IMG/VR virus record: IMGVR_UViG_3300032088_000110
Coordinates: 1 to 21,385 of that record
DNA from: a virus
Reading direction: 5' to 3' (one strand)
DNA length: 21,385 nt
Shown: one piece after another, positions 10,096 through 17,821 of the stretch
How the letters are laid out: every line of letters begins with the position of its first letter
Position numbering within the stretch: position 1 is the stretch's first letter
Program-made: the position numbers and the translations under genes
The notes under the pieces: generated by a model
Seen by the model: only the letters and a program-made list of their open reading frames with translations
What the model was told of the DNA's origin: nothing
The model's database searches: none

Positions 10096-10456
10096 GAACG
10101 ATCTGTATTACGTTATCTGTGCTGGTGGATATTGTAGTGGTGTCTTGTTCTTTCCAGCCTGCTTGTGTCTTTAAATAAAATATTGCCGCTGTGACGTTGC
10201 CATTTTGTGCTTGGTTGACTAAATTACCTGCCACACTTGCAATAGCTTTTCCCTTGCCTTTTTTATAAGCATCAGAAACTTCGGGCTGACGCTCCTCGAT
10301 GGCACGAAAAGTTGTTTCCGATATACCAAAATAATCTGCCAACTGGCTTTTAGTTAAGACAGCAGATAAACGCTCAACCATTATTGTGTCTTCGTCATCG
10401 AATACTTTTGTTGGTCTGCCGCCACCTTCACCTTGATTGCCTATTTTCATAATCAT
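10076..10456 (-). CDS. terS: Probable terminase small subunit
   Basis: A 126-residue protein upstream of and overlapping the large terminase. After a Gly-rich lead (GEGGGRPTKVFDD), residues about 30-60 form a helix-turn-helix (LTKSQLADYFGISETTFRAI) followed by KGKGKAIASVAGNLVNQAQN and FYLKTQAGWKEQ, a pattern shared with many small terminases that bind pac or cos DNA. Three in-frame starts lie close together (GTG 10459, ATG 10456, ATG 10450); ATG 10456 is chosen because a GAG lies eight to ten bases upstream. It overlaps the stop of the cytidylyltransferase-like gene. Confidence 0.78.
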   Translation of the reverse strand: MIMKIGNQGEGGGRPTKVFDDEDTIMVERLSAVLTKSQLADYFGISETTFRAIEERQPEVSDAYKKGKGKAIASVAGNLVNQAQNGNVTAAIFYLKTQAGWKEQDTTTISTSTDNVIQIVRATVPD

Positions 10457-10857
10457 CACTTTTTGCTCAATCTGTTGCGTAGTTCGGTTGAAGAAAACCT
10501 GTGCTTTCTAGAGTTAAAAAATATGGGTATATGTAACTTATTGCCTGTAAATGCTCTATTCCTGTACTCTTCACCGACAAATCGTATATGTATAGGCTGT
10601 GTGGTTAATATCGCCATTAAGTCTTGTTCGGTGCAATAGGGTATAACTTCGTCAACGTATTTGCTCCCAGCAATTTGAATATAACGCTCTACAATACTCT
10701 GAACTGGTTTATTTTTTTCTGGTCTTTCTAGCGACGGATCTACTTGCAAGCAACAAATTAGATAATCACAGTGCATTTTTGCTTCTCGTAACATGGCAAC
10801 ATGACCTGCGTGCAGTAAATCGAAGCATGAAGCTGTGATACCTACTTTAGGACACAT
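10456..10857 (-). CDS. Cytidylyltransferase-like (TagD/glycerol-3-phosphate cytidylyltransferase-type) protein
   Basis: A 133-residue protein of the small nucleotidyltransferase fold. Residues 4-19 read KVGITASCFDLLHAGH with the HAGH nucleotide-binding motif (residues 16-19), and the C-terminus has RFSSTELRNR, the ISST-x-LR-type motif of the same family. Such enzymes make CDP-activated polyols or similar compounds from CTP. Lying directly after the glycosyltransferase (11-base overlap) and before the terminase genes, it may make an activated group for DNA modification; wall or surface polymer precursors would be the alternative in other contexts. Substrate cannot be told from sequence. Confidence 0.82.
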   Translation of the reverse strand: MCPKVGITASCFDLLHAGHVAMLREAKMHCDYLICCLQVDPSLERPEKNKPVQSIVERYIQIAGSKYVDEVIPYCTEQDLMAILTTQPIHIRFVGEEYRNRAFTGNKLHIPIFFNSRKHRFSSTELRNRLSKK

Positions 10858-11773
10858 ATTTTTTTACACTCATACCGTAATTATTTACTTTTTTACCAGT
10901 AACTACTTCTTGATTTTTAATCAGCTTTTGTTTTTTAAAACCAGAATAGTCAACATGATGATGCCATCTGTTATAACGCCATGTTAATTTTGAAACATCA
11001 GGATGTACTTTAACTTGCATTTGGCTTTTAGCAATCGTTCCTGTATCTGCGTACCTATCGCCTTTCTGAACGATGCCTTCTTTGTGATAGAACTCTTCTG
11101 TATTGCCGCCTTTAACAACTTGAGTGCCAAGTTTTTCTTGCAAAAAAGCATAAAATTGTACGGTACACCAGCCTGCCTTAAGCATATCGAGCGATAAAAT
11201 AGTATCTTCGTTATATCTGCCGCGCCAACGGAAAGACAAATCATTGCGAATAAAGTTACAACTATAAATTCTAGTATTTGTTATAAATGGTGGAAATTTC
11301 GTTCTTGCAGGTGCGAACATCATGTAACACGGACCTGCCATTGCAATATTTTTATATCGCAAACAAAAATCTTCCATCGCGCGCCAGAATGCAGAATTTT
11401 CTACTTTAATCCTTTGATTTTTATTCAATCTACGAAATGAAGCGATGTTATCGTCCATGACCCAGTGATGTGTAAAGCCATTTTTTATTGAATGTTCCCA
11501 AGCAAAATTTCTTGCAGGACCGGGTCCGGTGCTTTTTGTTAAACCATGCTCGTCACACAACTCGTATTTCTCTTTGTACGTCATATCCAGCGGTAATATA
11601 GTCGCAGATAATTTCATTTCTCGAACTGCGTTTTCGTAATCGTTAACTTGATCTGGTTCGACCACAACATAGTGTTGCACGCTCATCAGTGTAAGAGCTT
11701 TACTGGTGATCATATACTCAGCGCGACCTTTACTGGGCACATATAATGGAAATTGTGGGTAGGTGTCAGACAT
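10847..11773 (-). CDS. Glycosyltransferase of the TET-associated (TAGT) type
   Basis: A 308-residue protein with a GT-A-like N-terminal half. Residues 9-17 read PLYVPSKGR, followed by YVVVEPDQ; GPGPARNFAWEHS is at 83-95 and HWVMDDNI at 103-110, where the DDN acid cluster is the probable DXD-type sugar-nucleotide/metal site. Later blocks include FRWRGRYNEDTILSLDMLKA. I recognise this motif series as TAGT, a family tied to glycosylation of hydroxymethylcytosine or related DNA bases in phages; the label is from memory. It overlaps the ParB-like gene by eight bases. No TET/JBP dioxygenase or hydroxymethylase is in this window, so the acceptor base is unknown. Confidence 0.78.
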   Translation of the reverse strand: MSDTYPQFPLYVPSKGRAEYMITSKALTLMSVQHYVVVEPDQVNDYENAVREMKLSATILPLDMTYKEKYELCDEHGLTKSTGPGPARNFAWEHSIKNGFTHHWVMDDNIASFRRLNKNQRIKVENSAFWRAMEDFCLRYKNIAMAGPCYMMFAPARTKFPPFITNTRIYSCNFIRNDLSFRWRGRYNEDTILSLDMLKAGWCTVQFYAFLQEKLGTQVVKGGNTEEFYHKEGIVQKGDRYADTGTIAKSQMQVKVHPDVSKLTWRYNRWHHHVDYSGFKKQKLIKNQEVVTGKKVNNYGMSVKKYVS

Positions 11774-13051: not shown

Positions 13052-13251
13052 AGTCTGTACTCCGGCTTACATACTGATTCAAAAATTTCACGATAGTCAG
13101 GATGCCCATTTTTATTGTGATGCCACAATACTACATTTTCGCAGTATCGCTTTTCGGCATCTTTAGCAATTTGTAGTTCAGATGGCATACCGTTTAATTG
13201 AGAAATTAAGTAGATAGATGCAATCGCTAGTATTCCGTAAAATGCGTTCAT
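13048..13251 (-). CDS. Small protein with N-terminal membrane segment
   Basis: A 67-residue protein beginning MNAFYGILAIASIYLISQLN. Residues about 3-19 form one hydrophobic helix (signal anchor). The polar remainder has a possible ligand set: Cys37, HH at 43-44, and a late Cys-Lys-Pro. It resembles small inner-membrane proteins scattered through phage early regions, whose role is unknown. It overlaps both neighbours by four bases. Confidence 0.7.
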   Translation of the reverse strand: MNAFYGILAIASIYLISQLNGMPSELQIAKDAEKRYCENVVLWHHNKNGHPDYREIFESVCKPEYRL

Positions 13252-13649
13252 GCTCTAAGCCTCGCTACTGGCATTTCCATGTGATTAGGTATGAATATAC
13301 AGTCTGTAATAAAATCAATAATTTTATGGTCGTAGAAACGCACCCATTCTGTTTCGTATTCACCCGATTCTTCATTGTAGTTTGATTTTCTGTGGAAGCA
13401 TTCAATGGTTGATGTAGCGCAATCTATGTCGTATCGAAATTCCGTATCACCATGCATCTCGTGACCTACGGTTATTTCGGCGCGTGGATTGCCTTTGATA
13501 AAAGATTCTGCGCTGACCTTGCCATTTTTTTCCATTTCTTGTAATTTTTCTGCCGCTCCAGTTGGGTAATTGTCGTGATGTACATAAATACAAATGTCTC
13601 GACCTGATAGTGCATTGTTGGTGAAGTTATAAGTGCCTCGTGTTGCCAT
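13248..13649 (-). CDS. Phage hypothetical protein with GTY...YPTGAA pattern
   Basis: A 133-residue protein beginning MATRGTYNFTNNALSGRDIC. The block ICIYVHHDNYPTGAAEKLQE is one that recurs in uncharacterised phage proteins (GTY... IYIH.DGYPTGAA), so it is a genuine gene family, but I do not know its function. AAGGAG is present nine bases before the ATG. It lies in the small-gene cluster downstream of the palindromic-operator promoters. Confidence 0.72.
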   Translation of the reverse strand: MATRGTYNFTNNALSGRDICIYVHHDNYPTGAAEKLQEMEKNGKVSAESFIKGNPRAEITVGHEMHGDTEFRYDIDCATSTIECFHRKSNYNEESGEYETEWVRFYDHKIIDFITDCIFIPNHMEMPVARLRA

Positions 13650-13680
13650 GTTGTTTCTCCTTGATAGTTTTTGTTATTGC

Positions 13681-13941
13681 TTAGACATTATTATTGGCAA
13701 TTCTCAGTGTGTCAAATTTATTTTTACTTAATTCAATTTTAAATTGATTTAACAAACATTCAACTTCACTTTCGGTAACGTAGTATTTCTCATGGATATA
13801 CTGACTGTCTTCTAGTGTATGAATGATCTGTTGGAATGAAGAGCGAACCATATCGTTGAGTAATCGTTCTGACTCATCGCTAGGTTTGCATTCAGGGTGA
13901 TACGTGTCGGTTGAATATTGATTACAGGCTAAGCAGTTCAT
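13681..13941 (-). CDS. Small zinc-ribbon-like protein
   Basis: An 86-residue protein beginning MNCLACNQYSTDTYHPECKP. Residues 3-18 give a CxxC...HPEC set (Cys3, Cys6, His15, Cys18), enough for one zinc site. The rest is helical and acidic with no known domain. A second gene nearby (start 14658) has the same N-terminal arrangement (CxxC then HPKC). The ATG overlaps the stop of the 59-residue gene upstream. Function is unknown; a DNA or protein adaptor role is possible. Confidence 0.72.
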   Translation of the reverse strand: MNCLACNQYSTDTYHPECKPSDESERLLNDMVRSSFQQIIHTLEDSQYIHEKYYVTESEVECLLNQFKIELSKNKFDTLRIANNNV

Positions 13942-14117
13942 AGCGTTTCTCCGTCATAAAGTAACTTCTCAACACGATGATATTTAGCAAGTGAAGGCAA
14001 CAAAGGAACAACAAACTTTTCAGCATATTCTTCTTTAGTTAAAACCGTCAAACCGCTTTCAATAGATAAATAGCAAGCTCCATTTGTATCTACGATGTCA
14101 AAATTAAATTTATTCAT
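13938..14117 (-). CDS. Small hypothetical protein (59 residues)
   Basis: ATG at 14117 with AAGGAG at nine bases upstream opens a 59-residue frame: MNKFNFDIVDTNGACYLSIE and onward to KLLYDGETL. The stop overlaps the next start in CTATGA. Composition, ribosome-binding site and coupling support a real gene. No function is recognised. It is the first gene after the large inverted-repeat region at 14143-14331. Confidence 0.72.
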   Translation of the reverse strand: MNKFNFDIVDTNGACYLSIESGLTVLTKEEYAEKFVVPLLPSLAKYHRVEKLLYDGETL

Positions 14118-14142
14118 TGATGTTTCTCCTTTTTGTTTTGGT

Positions 14143-14331
14143 GGGCATTCAAAGGATTTGCCTATATTGAAGCCTTTCGTGCTTCGACTCGTAAGGGGAA
14201 CGGTATAGACTAAAGTTCAACTATTTATCTTAAAGCTAAATCCGTTTACCGCGAATCGCAATTAAGGGAACGTTTCACCGAGGTCGCACTATTTACCTTC
14301 ACGATGATATAAACAAATCCTTTCAATGTCC
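14143..14331 (+). ncRNA. Non-coding block closed by an 18-bp inverted repeat; possible structured RNA
   Basis: GGGCATTCAAAGGATTTG (14143-14160) pairs with CAAATCCTTTCAATGTCC (14314-14331) at 17 of 18 positions, one as G-U. Inside, CTATATTG (14162-14169) pairs with CGGTATAG (14201-14208) with two G-U pairs, enclosing a smaller CCTT.CG/CG.AAGG hairpin. All three G-U pairs are valid only for a plus-strand RNA; on the minus strand they become A-C. No gene-like ORF with a Shine-Dalgarno fills it. The alternative is a small element with terminal inverted repeats (MITE-like), though no target duplication is seen. Strand is a weak inference. Confidence 0.5.
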
Positions 14332-14338
14332 TCCTGAA

Positions 14339-14354
14339 GCCCCCCGAAGGGGGC
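14339..14354 (-). repeat. UUCG hairpin plus Shine-Dalgarno unit, copy 1
   Basis: On the minus strand GCCCCC-TTCG-GGGGGC forms a 6-bp GC stem with a C(UUCG)G loop, followed by TTCAGGAGG. Unlike the other two copies, no ATG follows at the expected distance; the non-coding block follows instead. Confidence 0.75.
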
Positions 14355-14361
14355 GGTTGAT

Positions 14362-14658
14362 TTAGTTTAATGTATATATTTCTAATTCTTGGCTTACATT
14401 AAATACTGCTTTTCCGATTTCATCATCACTTAGAATGTCGCCGTATTTCAAATTTAACTCTTCTCCGTAATTCATTAGCCCAAGCAAACTTACTTCGTGA
14501 TTTTTGGATAATTGAATTTTTGCATAATCTTTAATAGCTTCTGTAGACTTAGCGAAAAAATCATCTTCACACTTGGGGTGAGCATACCTGTAATCATTAT
14601 CTAAACAGGCGTTTTCATCATCGGCTACGTATTCATCACAATATTTACAAAATGGCAT
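14362..14658 (-). CDS. Small zinc-ribbon-like protein
   Basis: A 98-residue protein beginning MPFCKYCDEYVADDENACLD. Cys4, Cys7, and later the AHPKC pair (about residues 26-30) form a CxxC...HxxC zinc site like that of the gene at 13681-13941; the rest differs. It is translated from the hairpin-linked AGGAG at copy 2, seven bases before the ATG. No known domain beyond the zinc site; function is not recognised. Confidence 0.74.
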   Translation of the reverse strand: MPFCKYCDEYVADDENACLDNDYRYAHPKCEDDFFAKSTEAIKDYAKIQLSKNHEVSLLGLMNYGEELNLKYGDILSDDEIGKAVFNVSQELEIYTLN

Positions 14659-14673
14659 TTTTAATCTCCTGAA

Positions 14674-14689
14674 GCCCCCCGAAGGGGGC
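14674..14689 (-). repeat. UUCG hairpin plus Shine-Dalgarno unit, copy 2
   Basis: Identical 16-base GCCCCC-TTCG-GGGGGC stem-loop on the minus strand, followed by TTCAGGAGATT and the ATG at 14658. No U tract follows, so this is not a normal terminator. Confidence 0.8.
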
Positions 14690-14696
14690 AGTTGGT

Positions 14697-14885
14697 TTAC
14701 TTGGCTTTTTTACCATTTATTGTTATGGCTGATGCAGTTTCTATCTCTTGCGCTTTGATGCCTTTAACGTGCCATTCGCTTCTGGCTATAGCCATGAATG
14801 TTTTTTCACCGCCATTGGTGCAGAACCATTCCTCAGCATCAGCATCTCTGTTAAGTGTGATTATATCGCCTTGTCGTATGAACAT
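14697..14885 (-). CDS. Small hypothetical protein, first gene after promoter A
   Basis: A 62-residue protein beginning MFIRQGDIITLNRDADAEEW and ending ITINGKKAK, probably a small beta-barrel. It is preceded by AAAAAGGTAAATAAAT as ribosome-binding region, and this leader is repeated almost exactly upstream of the gene at 15979. No function is recognised. Confidence 0.7.
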   Translation of the reverse strand: MFIRQGDIITLNRDADAEEWFCTNGGEKTFMAIARSEWHVKGIKAQEIETASAITINGKKAK

Positions 14886-14917
14886 ATTTATTTACCTTTT
14901 TAGTTAATGTTGGGTAC

Positions 14918-14945
14918 ATGATATATCTTTCCCACGCATTGTCAA
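14918..14945 (-). promoter_or_regulatory. Promoter A for the small-gene operon
   Basis: On the minus strand, perfect TTGACA (14945-14940), 16-base gap, TATCAT (14923-14918, 5/6). It aligns over about 80 bases, including the leader and ribosome-binding site, with promoter B. Confidence 0.7.
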
Positions 14946-14958
14946 AGGTTTTTTTACA
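14940..14958. promoter_or_regulatory. Palindromic operator, copy A
   Basis: TGTCAA-N7-TTTACA, one mismatch from the perfect TGTAAA-N7-TTTACA of copy B, and overlapping the -35 box of promoter A. Probably a dimeric repressor or activator site. Confidence 0.5.
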
Positions 14959-15017
14959 AATATCTTAATTATTTTGTCATTTTATTGTAAGTGTATGTTT
15001 TTATTATAGAAAAAATA

Positions 15018-15275
15018 TCAATTATTTTCGTAGATTGTCTTTAAAAGCTTGAATTTTTTGCTGTAAATCTCAATTTTGGGGCTTCTTTGCTCTCCGCATT
15101 GTGTGTCAAAAGCGTAGATTTTGGCATCGTCTATCGCCCATTCTTTGCGATGATGTTCACTCAAATTCGTATGATTGCCATCGTGATCATATTTGCAGAC
15201 CATCCAACAATTCCATTCCTCGCACCAGTCAACAACAACTTTTGACCAAATCATTTTTTTTTCTTTATTCACCTG
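15018..15275 (-). CDS. Small hypothetical protein
   Basis: An 85-residue protein. GTG at 15275 is chosen because GGAGG lies five bases before it; a TTG at 15287 and an ATG at 15254 (MIWSKVVVDWCEEWNCW) are alternatives. It is Trp- and Cys-rich in the first third and ends KIEIYSKKFKLLKTIYENN, which resembles the EIVMYSKNF part of the upstream neighbour; the two may be distant paralogues. No function is recognised. Confidence 0.65.
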   Translation of the reverse strand, partial: QVNKEKKMIWSKVVVDWCEEWNCWMVCKYDHDGNHTNLSEHHRKEWAIDDAKIYAFDTQCGEQRSPKIEIYSKKFKLLKTIYENN

Positions 15276-15477
15276 CACCTCCAACACCGTCAGCGTCTAT
15301 GAAATTTTTTGAATACATTACGATTTCTGGAAACGTGAACTCGCCAGCACAATACTCCCAAATATCCCAGCAGTCATTGTGTAGAGTGATCTCAACAACA
15401 AAACCATCATCGTAAAAATCTGCTACTTTGGCACAGCGTTTTTTGCCAAGTGCTTTTTTAAGTTGAGGTATAATCAT
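15265..15477 (-). CDS. Small hypothetical protein
   Basis: A 70-residue protein beginning MIIPQLKKALGKKRCAKVAD and containing LHNDCWDIWEYCAGEFTFPE. It is translated from AGGAGG seven bases before the ATG at 15477, part of hairpin copy 3. Its end overlaps the GTG start chosen for the next gene. Function is not recognised. Confidence 0.7.
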   Translation of the reverse strand: MIIPQLKKALGKKRCAKVADFYDDGFVVEITLHNDCWDIWEYCAGEFTFPEIVMYSKNFIDADGVGGAGE

Positions 15478-15493
15478 TTCTCGCCCTCCTGAA

Positions 15494-15509
15494 GCCCCCC
15501 TAAGGGGGC
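15494..15509 (-). repeat. Hairpin plus Shine-Dalgarno unit, copy 3
   Basis: On the minus strand GCCCCC-TTAG-GGGGGC, the same stem as copies 1 and 2 with one loop base changed, followed by TTCAGGAGG and the ATG at 15477. Confidence 0.78.
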
Positions 15510-15525
15510 GGTGGTTGTAAAGTTT

Positions 15526-15744
15526 TTATTTAAGATATGTCACACCTTTAATTTTTGCGTTCAAAGACTGTTCAATCTCTTTAAGAAAAAAGTTTATAGA
15601 ACTTGATGCTCCTGTCGCTCTACCTTTCCAATATTTTGCCATTTTCAAATCTTTACTTTGACAAGATTGCTTTACGTTCTCAGTAAACTGTATTAATTCT
15701 TTTTGAGATATTTGTAATCCTTTGGTCCAAGTATCAATGTTCAT
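15526..15744 (-). CDS. Small hypothetical protein
   Basis: A 72-residue protein from the ATG at 15744: MNIDTWTKGLQISQKELIQF, helical and basic, ending KEIEQSLNAKIKGVTYLK. The frame is open further upstream to 15945, but that part lies over the better-supported gene 15749-15979. GGAG lies nine bases before the ATG. No function is recognised. Confidence 0.68.
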   Translation of the reverse strand: MNIDTWTKGLQISQKELIQFTENVKQSCQSKDLKMAKYWKGRATGASSSINFFLKEIEQSLNAKIKGVTYLK

Positions 15745-15748
15745 ATTT

Positions 15749-15979
15749 TTAAGCTCCGTATTTTTGTAAAGTTTCAATTGCATCTTTTTTAGTTTCGTAT
15801 GGTGCGTCGTGGCATTCCCAATCACCATCGAAATTAAAAAATGTTCGCCACCCCTTGCCCATGTCAGAATCGTTAGAAAATTGAAGTTGAACCAATGTTT
15901 CTGGTTTGATGCCTTGAGTATCAGTAACGTTAACGTCATAACCAAATTTGGTTCTTTTTGTTTTTGTTTGATACCTCAT
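15749..15979 (-). CDS. Small hypothetical protein, first gene after promoter B
   Basis: A 76-residue protein beginning MRYQTKTKRTKFGYDVNVTD, with a beta-rich middle (WRTFFNFDGDWECHDAPY) and a helical C-terminus. Its leader AAAAAGGTAAACAAAC repeats that of the gene at 14885. Function is not recognised. Confidence 0.7.
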   Translation of the reverse strand: MRYQTKTKRTKFGYDVNVTDTQGIKPETLVQLQFSNDSDMGKGWRTFFNFDGDWECHDAPYETKKDAIETLQKYGA

Positions 15980-16011
15980 GTTTGTTTACCTTTTTAAATG
16001 AATGTAGGGAC

Positions 16012-16039
16012 ATACTAATCCGTACTCACTCAATGTAAA
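16012..16039 (-). promoter_or_regulatory. Promoter B
   Basis: On the minus strand TTTACA (16039-16034, 5/6), 16-base gap, TAGTAT (16017-16012, 4/6). Same layout as promoter A, with which it shares upstream T/A tract, operator and leader. Confidence 0.6.
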
Positions 16040-16052
16040 GATATTTTTTACA
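16034..16052. promoter_or_regulatory. Palindromic operator, copy B (perfect)
   Basis: TGTAAA-GATATTT-TTTACA, a perfect 6-bp inverted repeat with a 7-bp spacer. Its left half on the plus strand is the -35 box of promoter B on the minus strand, so protein binding would block or shape RNA polymerase access. Confidence 0.55.
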
Positions 16053-16103
16053 AATAACGCAACTATTTTTAAATTAATTGATAAGTTATTGTTTTGTCTA
16101 AGG

Positions 16104-16517
16104 TTAAATATTCAACTTTTTTCGCATTTCTGCGATTCTTTTGCGTATTTCTTCGGGTGGCAAAGGGTCTTTGGTCGGTTTCACGTGGAACGTACGATGG
16201 CTTTTATGACTCACTGTCAATCGGCATATGTTCCTAAAATGAGGCAAAGTTAGAAAATCGAGATGGTCTTGGCAAGCTCTGATGCCATCAAGATATTCTT
16301 GTTCAGTAAAGTCTTTAGTCAGTGACCGATGCCAAACTTTCATCTCTGTACTCCCGACAGGATCAGTGACTTTTTTCATTGCCTGTAAGATTCTCCAGCC
16401 CTTCGCCATAGTTTCGGCTGAGATATTCTCTGAGTTTTTGGTCTGCTTGCTCTGATTTACTGAGTCGTTCAACTTGTTGATAAGCGTCTGCGCTGACTTC
16501 ATCGTCGAATCGTTCAT
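16104..16517 (-). CDS. Possible replication protein P-like (helicase loader-type) protein
   Basis: A 137-residue protein. From about residue 37 it reads MAKGWRILQAMKKVTDPVGS, then EMKVWHRSLTKDF, GIRACQDHLDFLTLPHFRNI and CRL. This W..L..F..., G...C, LP.FR..C pattern is like the C-terminal part of lambda P-type helicase loaders and related phage replication proteins. The start at 16517 (AGAGGT ten bases upstream) makes it overlap the previous gene by 155 bases; internal ATGs at 16502 or 16409 would shorten the overlap. Function is inferred from pattern and from its partner; moderate confidence only. Confidence 0.55.
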   Translation of the reverse strand: MNDSTMKSAQTLINKLNDSVNQSKQTKNSENISAETMAKGWRILQAMKKVTDPVGSTEMKVWHRSLTKDFTEQEYLDGIRACQDHLDFLTLPHFRNICRLTVSHKSHRTFHVKPTKDPLPPEEIRKRIAEMRKKLNI

Positions 16518-16755
16518 TCTTAAGGTACCTCTCTACTGCTTGGAAATTAGGTGAAAATTGCCCTGCGGAGCGTAATTTCATTTTTGAATCTGCTTGTCGT
16601 TGATAGCTTTTTATAATGTAATCTACATCATCTGCATCAATCTGCATTTTCTGAAATACTTTATACGCTTTGATTTTTGAGCCTTTTTCTCCAAGACTTG
16701 AATCGAAAGCGTCCCATAACCTTTGAAATTCTGTCGAGTATTTAGTTCTGTTCAT
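16363..16755 (-). CDS. Possible replication protein O-like (C-terminal domain type) protein
   Basis: A 130-residue protein beginning MNRTKYSTEFQRLWDAFDSS. The segment FQRLWDAFDSSLGEKGSKIK (A.KVFQKM) followed by YIIKSYQRQADSK, FSPNFQAVERYLKNERFDD fits the repeated module at the C-terminus of phage replication initiators (F..FW..Y....K..A...W...; YIPHP.TWLN..RWED). Here it stands alone, without an N-terminal DNA-binding domain. CAGGAGG is six bases before the ATG, and this is the first gene on the minus side of the divergent control region. Replication role is likely but not proven. Confidence 0.55.
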   Translation of the reverse strand: MNRTKYSTEFQRLWDAFDSSLGEKGSKIKAYKVFQKMQIDADDVDYIIKSYQRQADSKMKLRSAGQFSPNFQAVERYLKNERFDDEVSADAYQQVERLSKSEQADQKLREYLSRNYGEGLENLTGNEKSH

Positions 16756-16785
16756 GCAACCTCCTGTTAAATTTTCTTTTTTGTT

Positions 16786-16804
16786 TGTGAAAAATATCTT
16801 TAAA
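16786..16804. promoter_or_regulatory. Palindromic operator, degenerate copy C
   Basis: TGTGAA-AAATATC-TTTAAA, same half-site spacing as copies A and B, embedded in a longer match to promoter B (TTTGTgAAAAATATCTTTAa, then ctGAGTG). It faces the plus strand, the opposite way from A and B. The -10 at the matching distance (TTAAAG, 16821-16826) is poor. Confidence 0.42.
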
Positions 16805-16850
16805 CTGAGTGCGTAAAACCTTAAAGGAGTTTCACCCTGTTTTCTTCTAT

Positions 16851-17101
16851 CGCGCTACAGTTTTTGGTGTATCGAATATGGTGTCTATTGATCTATATTA
16901 AGCATTAACAGATCAGGCATTTTCGCTCTCAGGTATCGCCGTCTCGTGGGTTTTATTATTCCCACGCCTCATGCCCACCAAAACTGTATCGGCGAATCAG
17001 GTTAGCTTGATCGAATGTAAAGAAATGGTAGAATAACCCAGTCGGGTATCCGTTCTCACCTTCTCTCACATCGGATTTTAGGCTTCCCACAGCCACCGAC
17101 T
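16851..17101. ncRNA. Highly folded non-coding block; candidate regulatory RNA or leader
   Basis: Closing helix: TACAGTTTT (16856-16864) with AAAACTGTA (16980-16988), then GGTG (16866-16869) with CACC (16976-16979). Inside, TGATCT/AGATCA (16889-16894/16910-16915) and TTAA-GCA-TTAA form one hairpin; the next base starts GGCAT/ATGCC (16916-16920/16971-16975), which encloses CGTGGG/CCCACG (16945-16950/16961-16966). Helices abut with no gap, as in a real junction. Beyond it CGAATCA/TGATCG forms a hairpin (16993-17013), and AGTCGG/CCGACT (17040-17045/17096-17101) encloses ATCCG/CGGAT. Nearly all pairs are Watson-Crick, so the strand cannot be told. It may be a cis leader, a small RNA or an origin. 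Confidence 0.5.
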
Positions 17102-17171
17102 TTCCCATTTAAAAACAAAACCTCTCTAAAGTAAAATTTTATTTTATTTTCTCTAAATATTAAAAAGATTC

Positions 17172-17200
17172 TTTACTTATTGCCAAGAATATTTGATAAT
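17172..17200 (+). promoter_or_regulatory. Promoter of the recombination operon
   Basis: TTTACT (17172-17177, 4/6) and GATAAT (17195-17200, 5/6) with a 17-base gap, preceded by a very A/T-rich stretch that could act as an UP element. Transcription would start near 17207, just upstream of the Erf-like gene. Confidence 0.65.
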
Positions 17201-17230
17201 GTCTGCTCAATCAATAAAAGGGAGAAAACA

Positions 17231-17821
17231 ATGGAAACAAGTAATGAGGTAAATGAGTTAGCTGAAGCATTATCTAAGATGCAAGGTGAGTTAGGCAAAG
17301 CAGAAAAGAGTGGTAAGGGTAATTATGGCAAACACGCGAAAATCGAAGATGTCATAAATGCCTGCAGAGTTCCTTTGGCAGATAACGATTTGAGCGTGGT
17401 TCAAGTCCCACGGAGTGCTGAGAACGGCATTAGTTTACAAACCCGAATCATGCACAAAAGCGGACAGTGGCTACAAGATGAACTGACCATGGCTATCACT
17501 ACAAAGGCAACGCCGCATGAATATGGCAAGCTGATTACTTACATGAGGCGATATGCATTAGCGGCTATTCTGGCAGTTGCGCAAGAAGATGATGACGCCC
17601 AGTCAATGCAAGTCACTACAGAAAAGCAAAATAGTGACAAGCCAATAGATAAAAGTCGAGTTATAGCTATTCAGAATTTACTCGATAACGATCTAGATCG
17701 TATTGGTAATTTTCTCAAGGCTTGCAATCTCGATAATCTGAGCAAAATTATGCAATCTGATTACGACAACCTTGTTGAGAAAATAACTGCTTCTAATAAA
17801 AAACGTACGGAGGATAAGTAA
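17231..17821 (+). CDS. erf: Erf-like single-strand annealing recombinase
   Basis: A 196-residue protein starting at the ATG at 17231 with AAGGGAG six bases upstream; upstream codons to 17180 lack a ribosome-binding site and cover the -10 box. The Erf core is clear: LAEALSKMQGELGKAEKSGK, then YGKHAKIEDVINACRVPLAD, SLQTRIMHKSGQWLQDEL, and EYGKLITYMRRYALAAILAV ending in the acidic AQEDDDA. The product anneals complementary strands, working with the YqaJ-type exonuclease and SSB encoded just downstream. C-terminal 70 residues are a helical domain of no known role. Stop overlaps the next ATG in TAATG. Confidence 0.9.
   Translation: METSNEVNELAEALSKMQGELGKAEKSGKGNYGKHAKIEDVINACRVPLADNDLSVVQVPRSAENGISLQTRIMHKSGQWLQDELTMAITTKATPHEYGKLITYMRRYALAAILAVAQEDDDAQSMQVTTEKQNSDKPIDKSRVIAIQNLLDNDLDRIGNFLKACNLDNLSKIMQSDYDNLVEKITASNKKRTEDK

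Follow-up and report, generated by a model that had tools for sequence, protein, structure and literature searches.

A virus record of 21,385 bases, referred to throughout as the window, carries between two small genes an inverted repeat at 14143–14331 that a first-pass annotation had read as the closing helix of a structured, non-coding element. The locus raises the questions of whether the repeat marks a genuine RNA, which strand encodes it, and what such an RNA might do. The closest cultured relatives of the window's terminase and coat protein are less than 60% identical.

The inverted repeat and its covariation in related phages

A repeat search confirmed the inverted repeat, the arms of which reach 14140–14167 and 14307–14334 when extended (28 nt each, 82% Watson-Crick, 139 nt apart). 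No open reading frame of at least 50 aa lies within the element or in the gap between the genes at 14362–14658 and 13938–14117, which agrees with the non-coding assignment, and a hidden frame is excluded by stops inside the conserved core and by 1-nt insertions and deletions among the copies. The fold z-score of the single sequence is −2.96 for the plus strand and −3.77 for the minus strand, and the element ranks seventh among 886 windows of 190 nt after GC correction; a strict inverted-repeat score, which permits no G-U pairs and few mismatches, does not exceed chance. The single-sequence evidence for structure is thus moderate. Elsewhere, a 35-nt inverted repeat at 16023–16057 and 16781–16815 (86% complementary, 723 nt apart) is the longest in the latter half of the window.

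The search of other loci that the first-pass annotation had proposed recovered ten related copies, all on IMG/VR phage contigs and one per record, giving with the window 11 copies, nine of them distinct. Comparison of the element by blastn with 76 loci carrying a related terminase yielded a single homologue, L010, while scans of IMG/VR with the conserved-core pattern yielded L078, L079, L080, L082, L083, L084, L086, L087, and L110. The copies form four sequence groups: class A (L010, L079, and L080), class B (L078, L082, L083, and L084), class C (L086, L087, and L110), and the window, which stands as its own group. The phages carrying class A and the window have structural or recombination genes in common; a different terminase or primase-helicase is common to classes B and C, and inspection of the reading frames of class C revealed a polymerase and a primase-helicase, both of T7 type. 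No obligatory partner protein is common to all classes, although the contigs of class C are short.

Relatives were absent from the INPHARED phages and the PLSDB plasmids. The 20 pattern matches in GTDB lack complementary arms on inspection and are all chance, and 369 genomes from the class of the gammaproteobacterial metagenome-assembled genome G015 gave no model match in a run without positive control. The IMG/VR pattern matches L085, L108, L109, L111, L112, and L127–L137 are likewise chance, later IMG/VR scans returned only chance matches in coding sequence, and the weak model match L059 was discarded, its core being absent. The element is so far found in uncultured phages only.

A hand-built structure fitted to the first seven copies left 93.0% of cells paired, with double changes in 16 pairs, and none of 500 shuffles did as well. 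The covariance model built from these seven relatives (R1), from which the window was excluded, finds the window copy with a score of 88.2 bits (E=1.2e-17), at 14333–14140 of the minus strand. Across the eleven copies (nine distinct), 93.5% of cells are paired, and double changes occur in 20 of the 45 pairs, in 52 cells altogether. Controls gave 19.0 ± 3.5 such cells in shuffles, none of 500 reaching 52, and 2–12 with the partners slid; fitting the alignment to the structure biases these counts somewhat in its favor, but the margins are nonetheless large. The arms of the closing helix differ throughout among classes A, B, and C, yet they remain complementary. This strong covariation, the outcome of a check across related phages suggested at the outset, settles what the single-sequence statistics had left moderate, and together with the match of R1 to the window it bears out the label "structured". 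Sequence comparison thus indicates that the element is a real structured RNA, the letters of which vary among phages while the folded shape is retained.

The RNA had been assigned to the plus strand, antisense to the genes around it. In the minus-sense reading, however, the family shows 40 G-U cells against 13 A-C cells, the latter being those that would read as G-U on the opposite strand, and this excess identifies the minus strand as the RNA. Model R1 scores only 20.6 bits on the plus strand of the window, against the 88.2 bits of the minus strand, and in each of the 11 copies the element runs in the direction of the genes beside it. The plus-strand assignment is therefore rejected.

Architecture of the fold and the enlarged window copy

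The consensus is a three-way junction of about 139 nt, consisting of a 27-bp closing helix (P1), a hairpin of 5 bp and 7 nt (P5), and an arm whose core (UAAAUAGU / CGUUCC) is nearly invariant. The features of the window copy and its surroundings are as follows.

14140–14333, minus strand: whole structured RNA, 194 nt against the 139-nt family consensus, found by model R1 built without the window
14306–14333, minus strand: closing helix P1, 5' strand; both-side changes in 12 of 27 P1 pairs among nine sequences
14141–14168, minus strand: closing helix P1, 3' strand; covariation counts and pairing in the window
14296–14303, minus strand: P2a (CGU) and P2b (AAGG), 5' strand; partner 14190–14196
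14190–14196, minus strand: P2b (CCUU) and P2a (ACG), 3' strand; pairing
14286–14295, minus strand: core A, 5' strand UAAAUAGUGC, including the short pairings AAU and GUG; UAAAUAGUG conserved
14197–14207, minus strand: core A, 3' strand UAUACCGUUCC; GUG/YAY and AAU/GUU pairings in every copy
14277–14285, minus strand: P3, 5' strand GACCUCGGU; GAC/GUC becomes GGC/GCC in class C
14208–14216, minus strand: P3, 3' strand ACUUUAGUC; covariation and pairing
14169–14185, minus strand: hairpin P5, 5 bp and 7-nt loop, GAAGC-ACGAAAG-GCUUC; covariation
14217–14276, minus strand: 60-nt insertion in the P3 loop, window only; exactly 60 inserted nt in the model alignment
14339–14354, minus strand: GC-rich hairpin immediately upstream; also at the ordinary gene junctions 14666 and 15486
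14126–14131, minus strand: AAGGAG, Shine-Dalgarno of the following gene, about 9 nt past P1; from the sequence
13938–14117, minus strand: downstream gene, 59 aa, no family; reading frame and family search
14362–14658, minus strand: upstream gene, 98 aa, no family; reading frame and family search
14918–14945, minus strand: promoter-like site TTGACA-16-TATCAT; consensus match only

The 27 pairs of P1 are interrupted by a single conserved A.C mismatch, which is an A-U pair in class C. In the consensus, the arm runs through P2a, P2b (GGG/CCC in the family), the core UAAAUAGUG(C/A) opposite (YAY)CGUUCC, P3 (GAC/GUC, GGUC/GACU), and a tetraloop. The string UAAAUAGUG is the same in all copies and is followed by C or A. 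Inspection of the core, outside the counted structure, revealed that the AAU/GUU pairing is invariant and that GUG faces CAU, UAU, CAC, or UAC, pairable in every case. Unlike P1 and the P5 loop, which vary, the core is invariant.

Hairpin P5 always consists of 5 bp and 7 nt, has 100% of its cells paired with both-side changes in three of five pairs, and, in the window and in classes A and B, directly abuts the 3' strand of P1. Its loop reads CUAGAAC, CCGUAAA, CUAGUAC, or ACGAAAG; a role of P5 as an anticodon-arm mimic, given this variable loop sequence, is speculation. The elements of L082 (91–229) and L083 (4623–4761) are 96% identical with the P5 loop swapped (CCGUAAA and CUAGAAC), and the loop CUAGAAC of L083 also occurs in class A. 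The swapped loop may determine specificity, or it may be the trace of recombination.

Analysis of the window copy indicated that its core is duplicated. The insertion holds a second core B (GAAACGUUCC at 14276–14267 and AUAAAUAGUUGA at 14228–14217), which is the core repeated and turned by 180 degrees, so that GAAACGUUCC opens the insertion and AUAAAUAGUUGA closes it. Core B is closed by helix P4 (CUUAA/UUAAG, 14266–14262 with 14233–14229), and the motif was also detected as a 12-nt direct repeat, ACTATTTAYCTT, with a spacing of 68. The lowest-energy fold of this copy (−55.9 kcal/mol) departs, in the part enclosed by P1, from the comparative structure (−44 to −48 kcal/mol), and the inner fold given here therefore rests on comparison rather than on energy.

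Genomic setting and exchange of neighboring genes

A GC-rich hairpin similar to that of the window precedes the element in every copy sequenced on that side. Within the window, the succession of such a hairpin and a Shine-Dalgarno on the minus strand, GCCCCCTTCGGGGGGCTTCAGGAG, occurs at three junctions (14331–14367, 14666–14702, and 15486–15522). Farther off, genes matching a PHROGs glucosyl-HMC glucosyltransferase (10847–11773) and a nucleotidyltransferase of the heptose-adenylyltransferase type (10456–10857) stand side by side and adjoin the terminase genes; this pair is possibly concerned with DNA or sugar modification.

Comparison of the loci revealed that the element remains 91–100% identical while the flanking genes change completely. 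In L083 and L084 the element and the upstream side are identical and the downstream genes unrelated; L087 and L110 have a 97% identical element and a common downstream gene, with unrelated upstream genes; L082 and L084 share the downstream gene and differ upstream. Among L010, L079, and L080, the element is 91–96% identical, while neither flank rises above the background level of a global alignment (about 58–63%). The break points are the GC-rich hairpin before the element and the Shine-Dalgarno after it.

The terminase of L002 is 97% identical to that of the window, and this phage has a small gene and a plain hairpin at the place of the element, followed by the same downstream gene. The exchanged stretch (L002 6135–6520, window 14138–14670) replaces the 98-aa gene, hairpin, and RNA element with a 112-aa gene and a hairpin. 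A normal reading frame at this place in a related phage had been named beforehand as evidence against the RNA; L002 does carry one, yet the RNA is not refuted, and the finding marks it as an accessory cassette. As the recombination with L002 breaks at one of the three hairpins, these may be cassette borders. The element is an accessory, self-contained unit, always in the orientation of its neighbors; because those neighbors are interchangeable and the element constant, it is an independent non-coding cassette and not a gene-specific riboswitch.

L083 (5006–5878), L084 (2807–3679), and L082 (511–1383) carry an antirestriction gene of the ArdC type, separated from the RNA downstream by one position in gene order (one gene upstream). 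The L083 protein matches ArdcN and MPTase-PolyVal in Pfam, and the L082 and L084 proteins are nearly identical to it. The gene is near class B copies only and is a weak hint at counter-defense.

Possible modes of action and comparison with known systems

The element is probably a small phage RNA that acts on something in the host, and among the options listed by the first-pass annotation the phage small RNA fits best. We consider the odds even that it is, more specifically, an autonomous-cassette structured non-coding RNA, transcribed early, freed by RNases, and acting in trans on a host factor through its core. The element would be transcribed inside an early operon mRNA, as suggested by its position between the hairpin and the next Shine-Dalgarno and by the lack of a terminator of its own; the promoter-like site at 14918–14945 could drive the operon through it. 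Host RNases would then free the RNA from this mRNA, with the 27-bp P1 as a plausible RNase III substrate. The freed RNA would act in trans, its invariant core being the putative binding site for a factor of the host, to be titrated or mimicked by the phage either for counter-defense or to take over a host RNA-binding protein or nuclease. The rotated core B of the window copy would provide a second binding site, by analogy with the repeat expansion in phage decoy RNAs. There is no room for an own promoter between hairpin and element, and the RNA may therefore act only within the mRNA.

An intercistronic element acting in cis, an RNase III site or 5' stabilizer that tunes the half-life of the mRNA or the translation of the next gene, is a serious contender that we nevertheless hold to be unlikely. 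The constant co-directionality fits it, as does the position a few nucleotides after the hairpin and about 8–20 nt ahead of the Shine-Dalgarno; it would tolerate independence of a specific downstream gene, and P1, with 27 pairs and one conserved mismatch, is long enough for RNase III (helix of at least 20 bp). T7-like phages process long helices between early genes at RNase III sites, and the element resembles these in being a long co-directional helix between early genes. Such processing, however, needs neither an invariant core nor a three-way junction with a covarying P5 nor a duplicated core, and L002 has the same downstream gene after a plain hairpin. Action in trans is preferred because selection fixes the core and not the helix, and because the core is duplicated in the window.

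A conserved core within an interrupted helix just before a start codon would also suit a ligand-binding riboswitch for the downstream gene, but this is improbable: near-identical copies precede unrelated downstream genes (L083 and L084), the window holds no minus-strand terminator-like site at 13200–17300, no Shine-Dalgarno pairing common to all classes was seen by inspection, and no Rfam riboswitch matches. The riboregulator option, taken as a regulator of the next gene, is likewise unsupported, as both flanking genes are exchanged around an unchanged element. Just as improbable is a self-cleaving ribozyme or RNA-processing catalyst, suggested by the invariant unpaired core nucleotides, the compact junction, and the string UAAAUAGU, which we take to resemble part of the pistol ribozyme (a lead rather than a test); no Rfam ribozyme model matched the window or L010 at an E value of 10, and no cleavage-site pattern was recognized. 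The transposable element proposed earlier, a small non-autonomous one of the MITE kind, would account for the long terminal inverted repeat and for the patchy presence and horizontal spread among relatives. It is very improbable, however, since it is the interior that is conserved and the arms, though still complementary, differ completely among classes, a pattern opposite to that required of a transposase site; moreover, each record has one copy, the element always takes the same orientation and the same niche between hairpin and Shine-Dalgarno, no transposase was seen, and the L002 exchange takes in a neighboring gene and so leaves no clean empty site. A chance inverted repeat without function, which the moderate single-sequence statistics alone might allow, is refuted by the covariation in ten homologues and has a negligible probability.

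With the trans-acting small RNA as the preferred reading, the element might represent RNA effectors of a new class in phages, modular three-way junctions in which the invariant core of an interrupted helix captures a host protein of defense or RNA metabolism and in which some copies add binding capacity through an inserted second core related to the first by two-fold symmetry; this proposal is tentative and somewhat doubtful. Only a small number of phage non-coding RNAs have been described, and where the role is known it is in several cases that of a decoy or of a host-RNA mimic. For this one, the comparative evidence is unusually clear, it occurs in phages with differing packaging genes, and its travel independent of its neighbors suggests that it has a function on which selection can act. 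The conserved core is a concrete bait for a partner, and the two-core window copy is a natural test of a separable binding module.

Searches of the window and five related loci with the 4227 models of Rfam 15 gave no match at the gathering threshold, and at E values up to 10 only chance-level matches for the element itself. Around the relatives, low thresholds gave a single match, a weak one to PhotoRC-I, which falls on the pre-element hairpin of L010, a generic UUCG hairpin. ARAGORN found 0 tRNA or tmRNA genes, and no catalogued RNA family has the same fold. The element is a new RNA family within the phage-encoded structured RNAs, although an unindexed description is possible.

Several known systems offer comparisons. 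The manA and wcaG RNAs are orphan structured RNAs of phage and marine origin found by comparative genomics (PMC2864571); like them, the element is an RNA of conserved structure for which environmental sequence, phages included, is the main source, but they are reported to lie beside recurrent kinds of genes, whereas its neighbors are interchangeable. RNA anti-CRISPRs (Racrs), which copy a CRISPR repeat, are a published precedent for phage decoy RNAs (PMC10651486), and the element resembles them as a small non-coding RNA that a phage genome carries by itself, with no cas genes. Unlike Racrs, it has no CRISPR model match above chance: similarity to the type I-F repeat is within chance in four of five copies tested and exceeds chance only in L010 (reached by 5 of 500 shuffles), whose TACAGGCAG..CTAGAA resembles that repeat but is not conserved, so that a CRISPR-repeat mimic was rejected. 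A second precedent for phage decoy RNAs is pseudo-ToxI of phage PhiTE, in which phages expand the number of repeats to escape the type III toxin-antitoxin system ToxIN (PMC3475682). ToxI consists of tandem pseudoknot repeats of about 36 nt, and no such tandem pseudoknots were found here: 10 of 11 copies are one unit of about 139 nt, a single three-way junction, and the repeat of the window is a rotated internal loop. Pseudo-ToxI mimics a host RNA to neutralize defense, whereas no host RNA counterpart of the element is known. What the two have in common is a phage-encoded non-coding RNA in which the copy number of a binding module, putative in our case, changes (PMC3475682).
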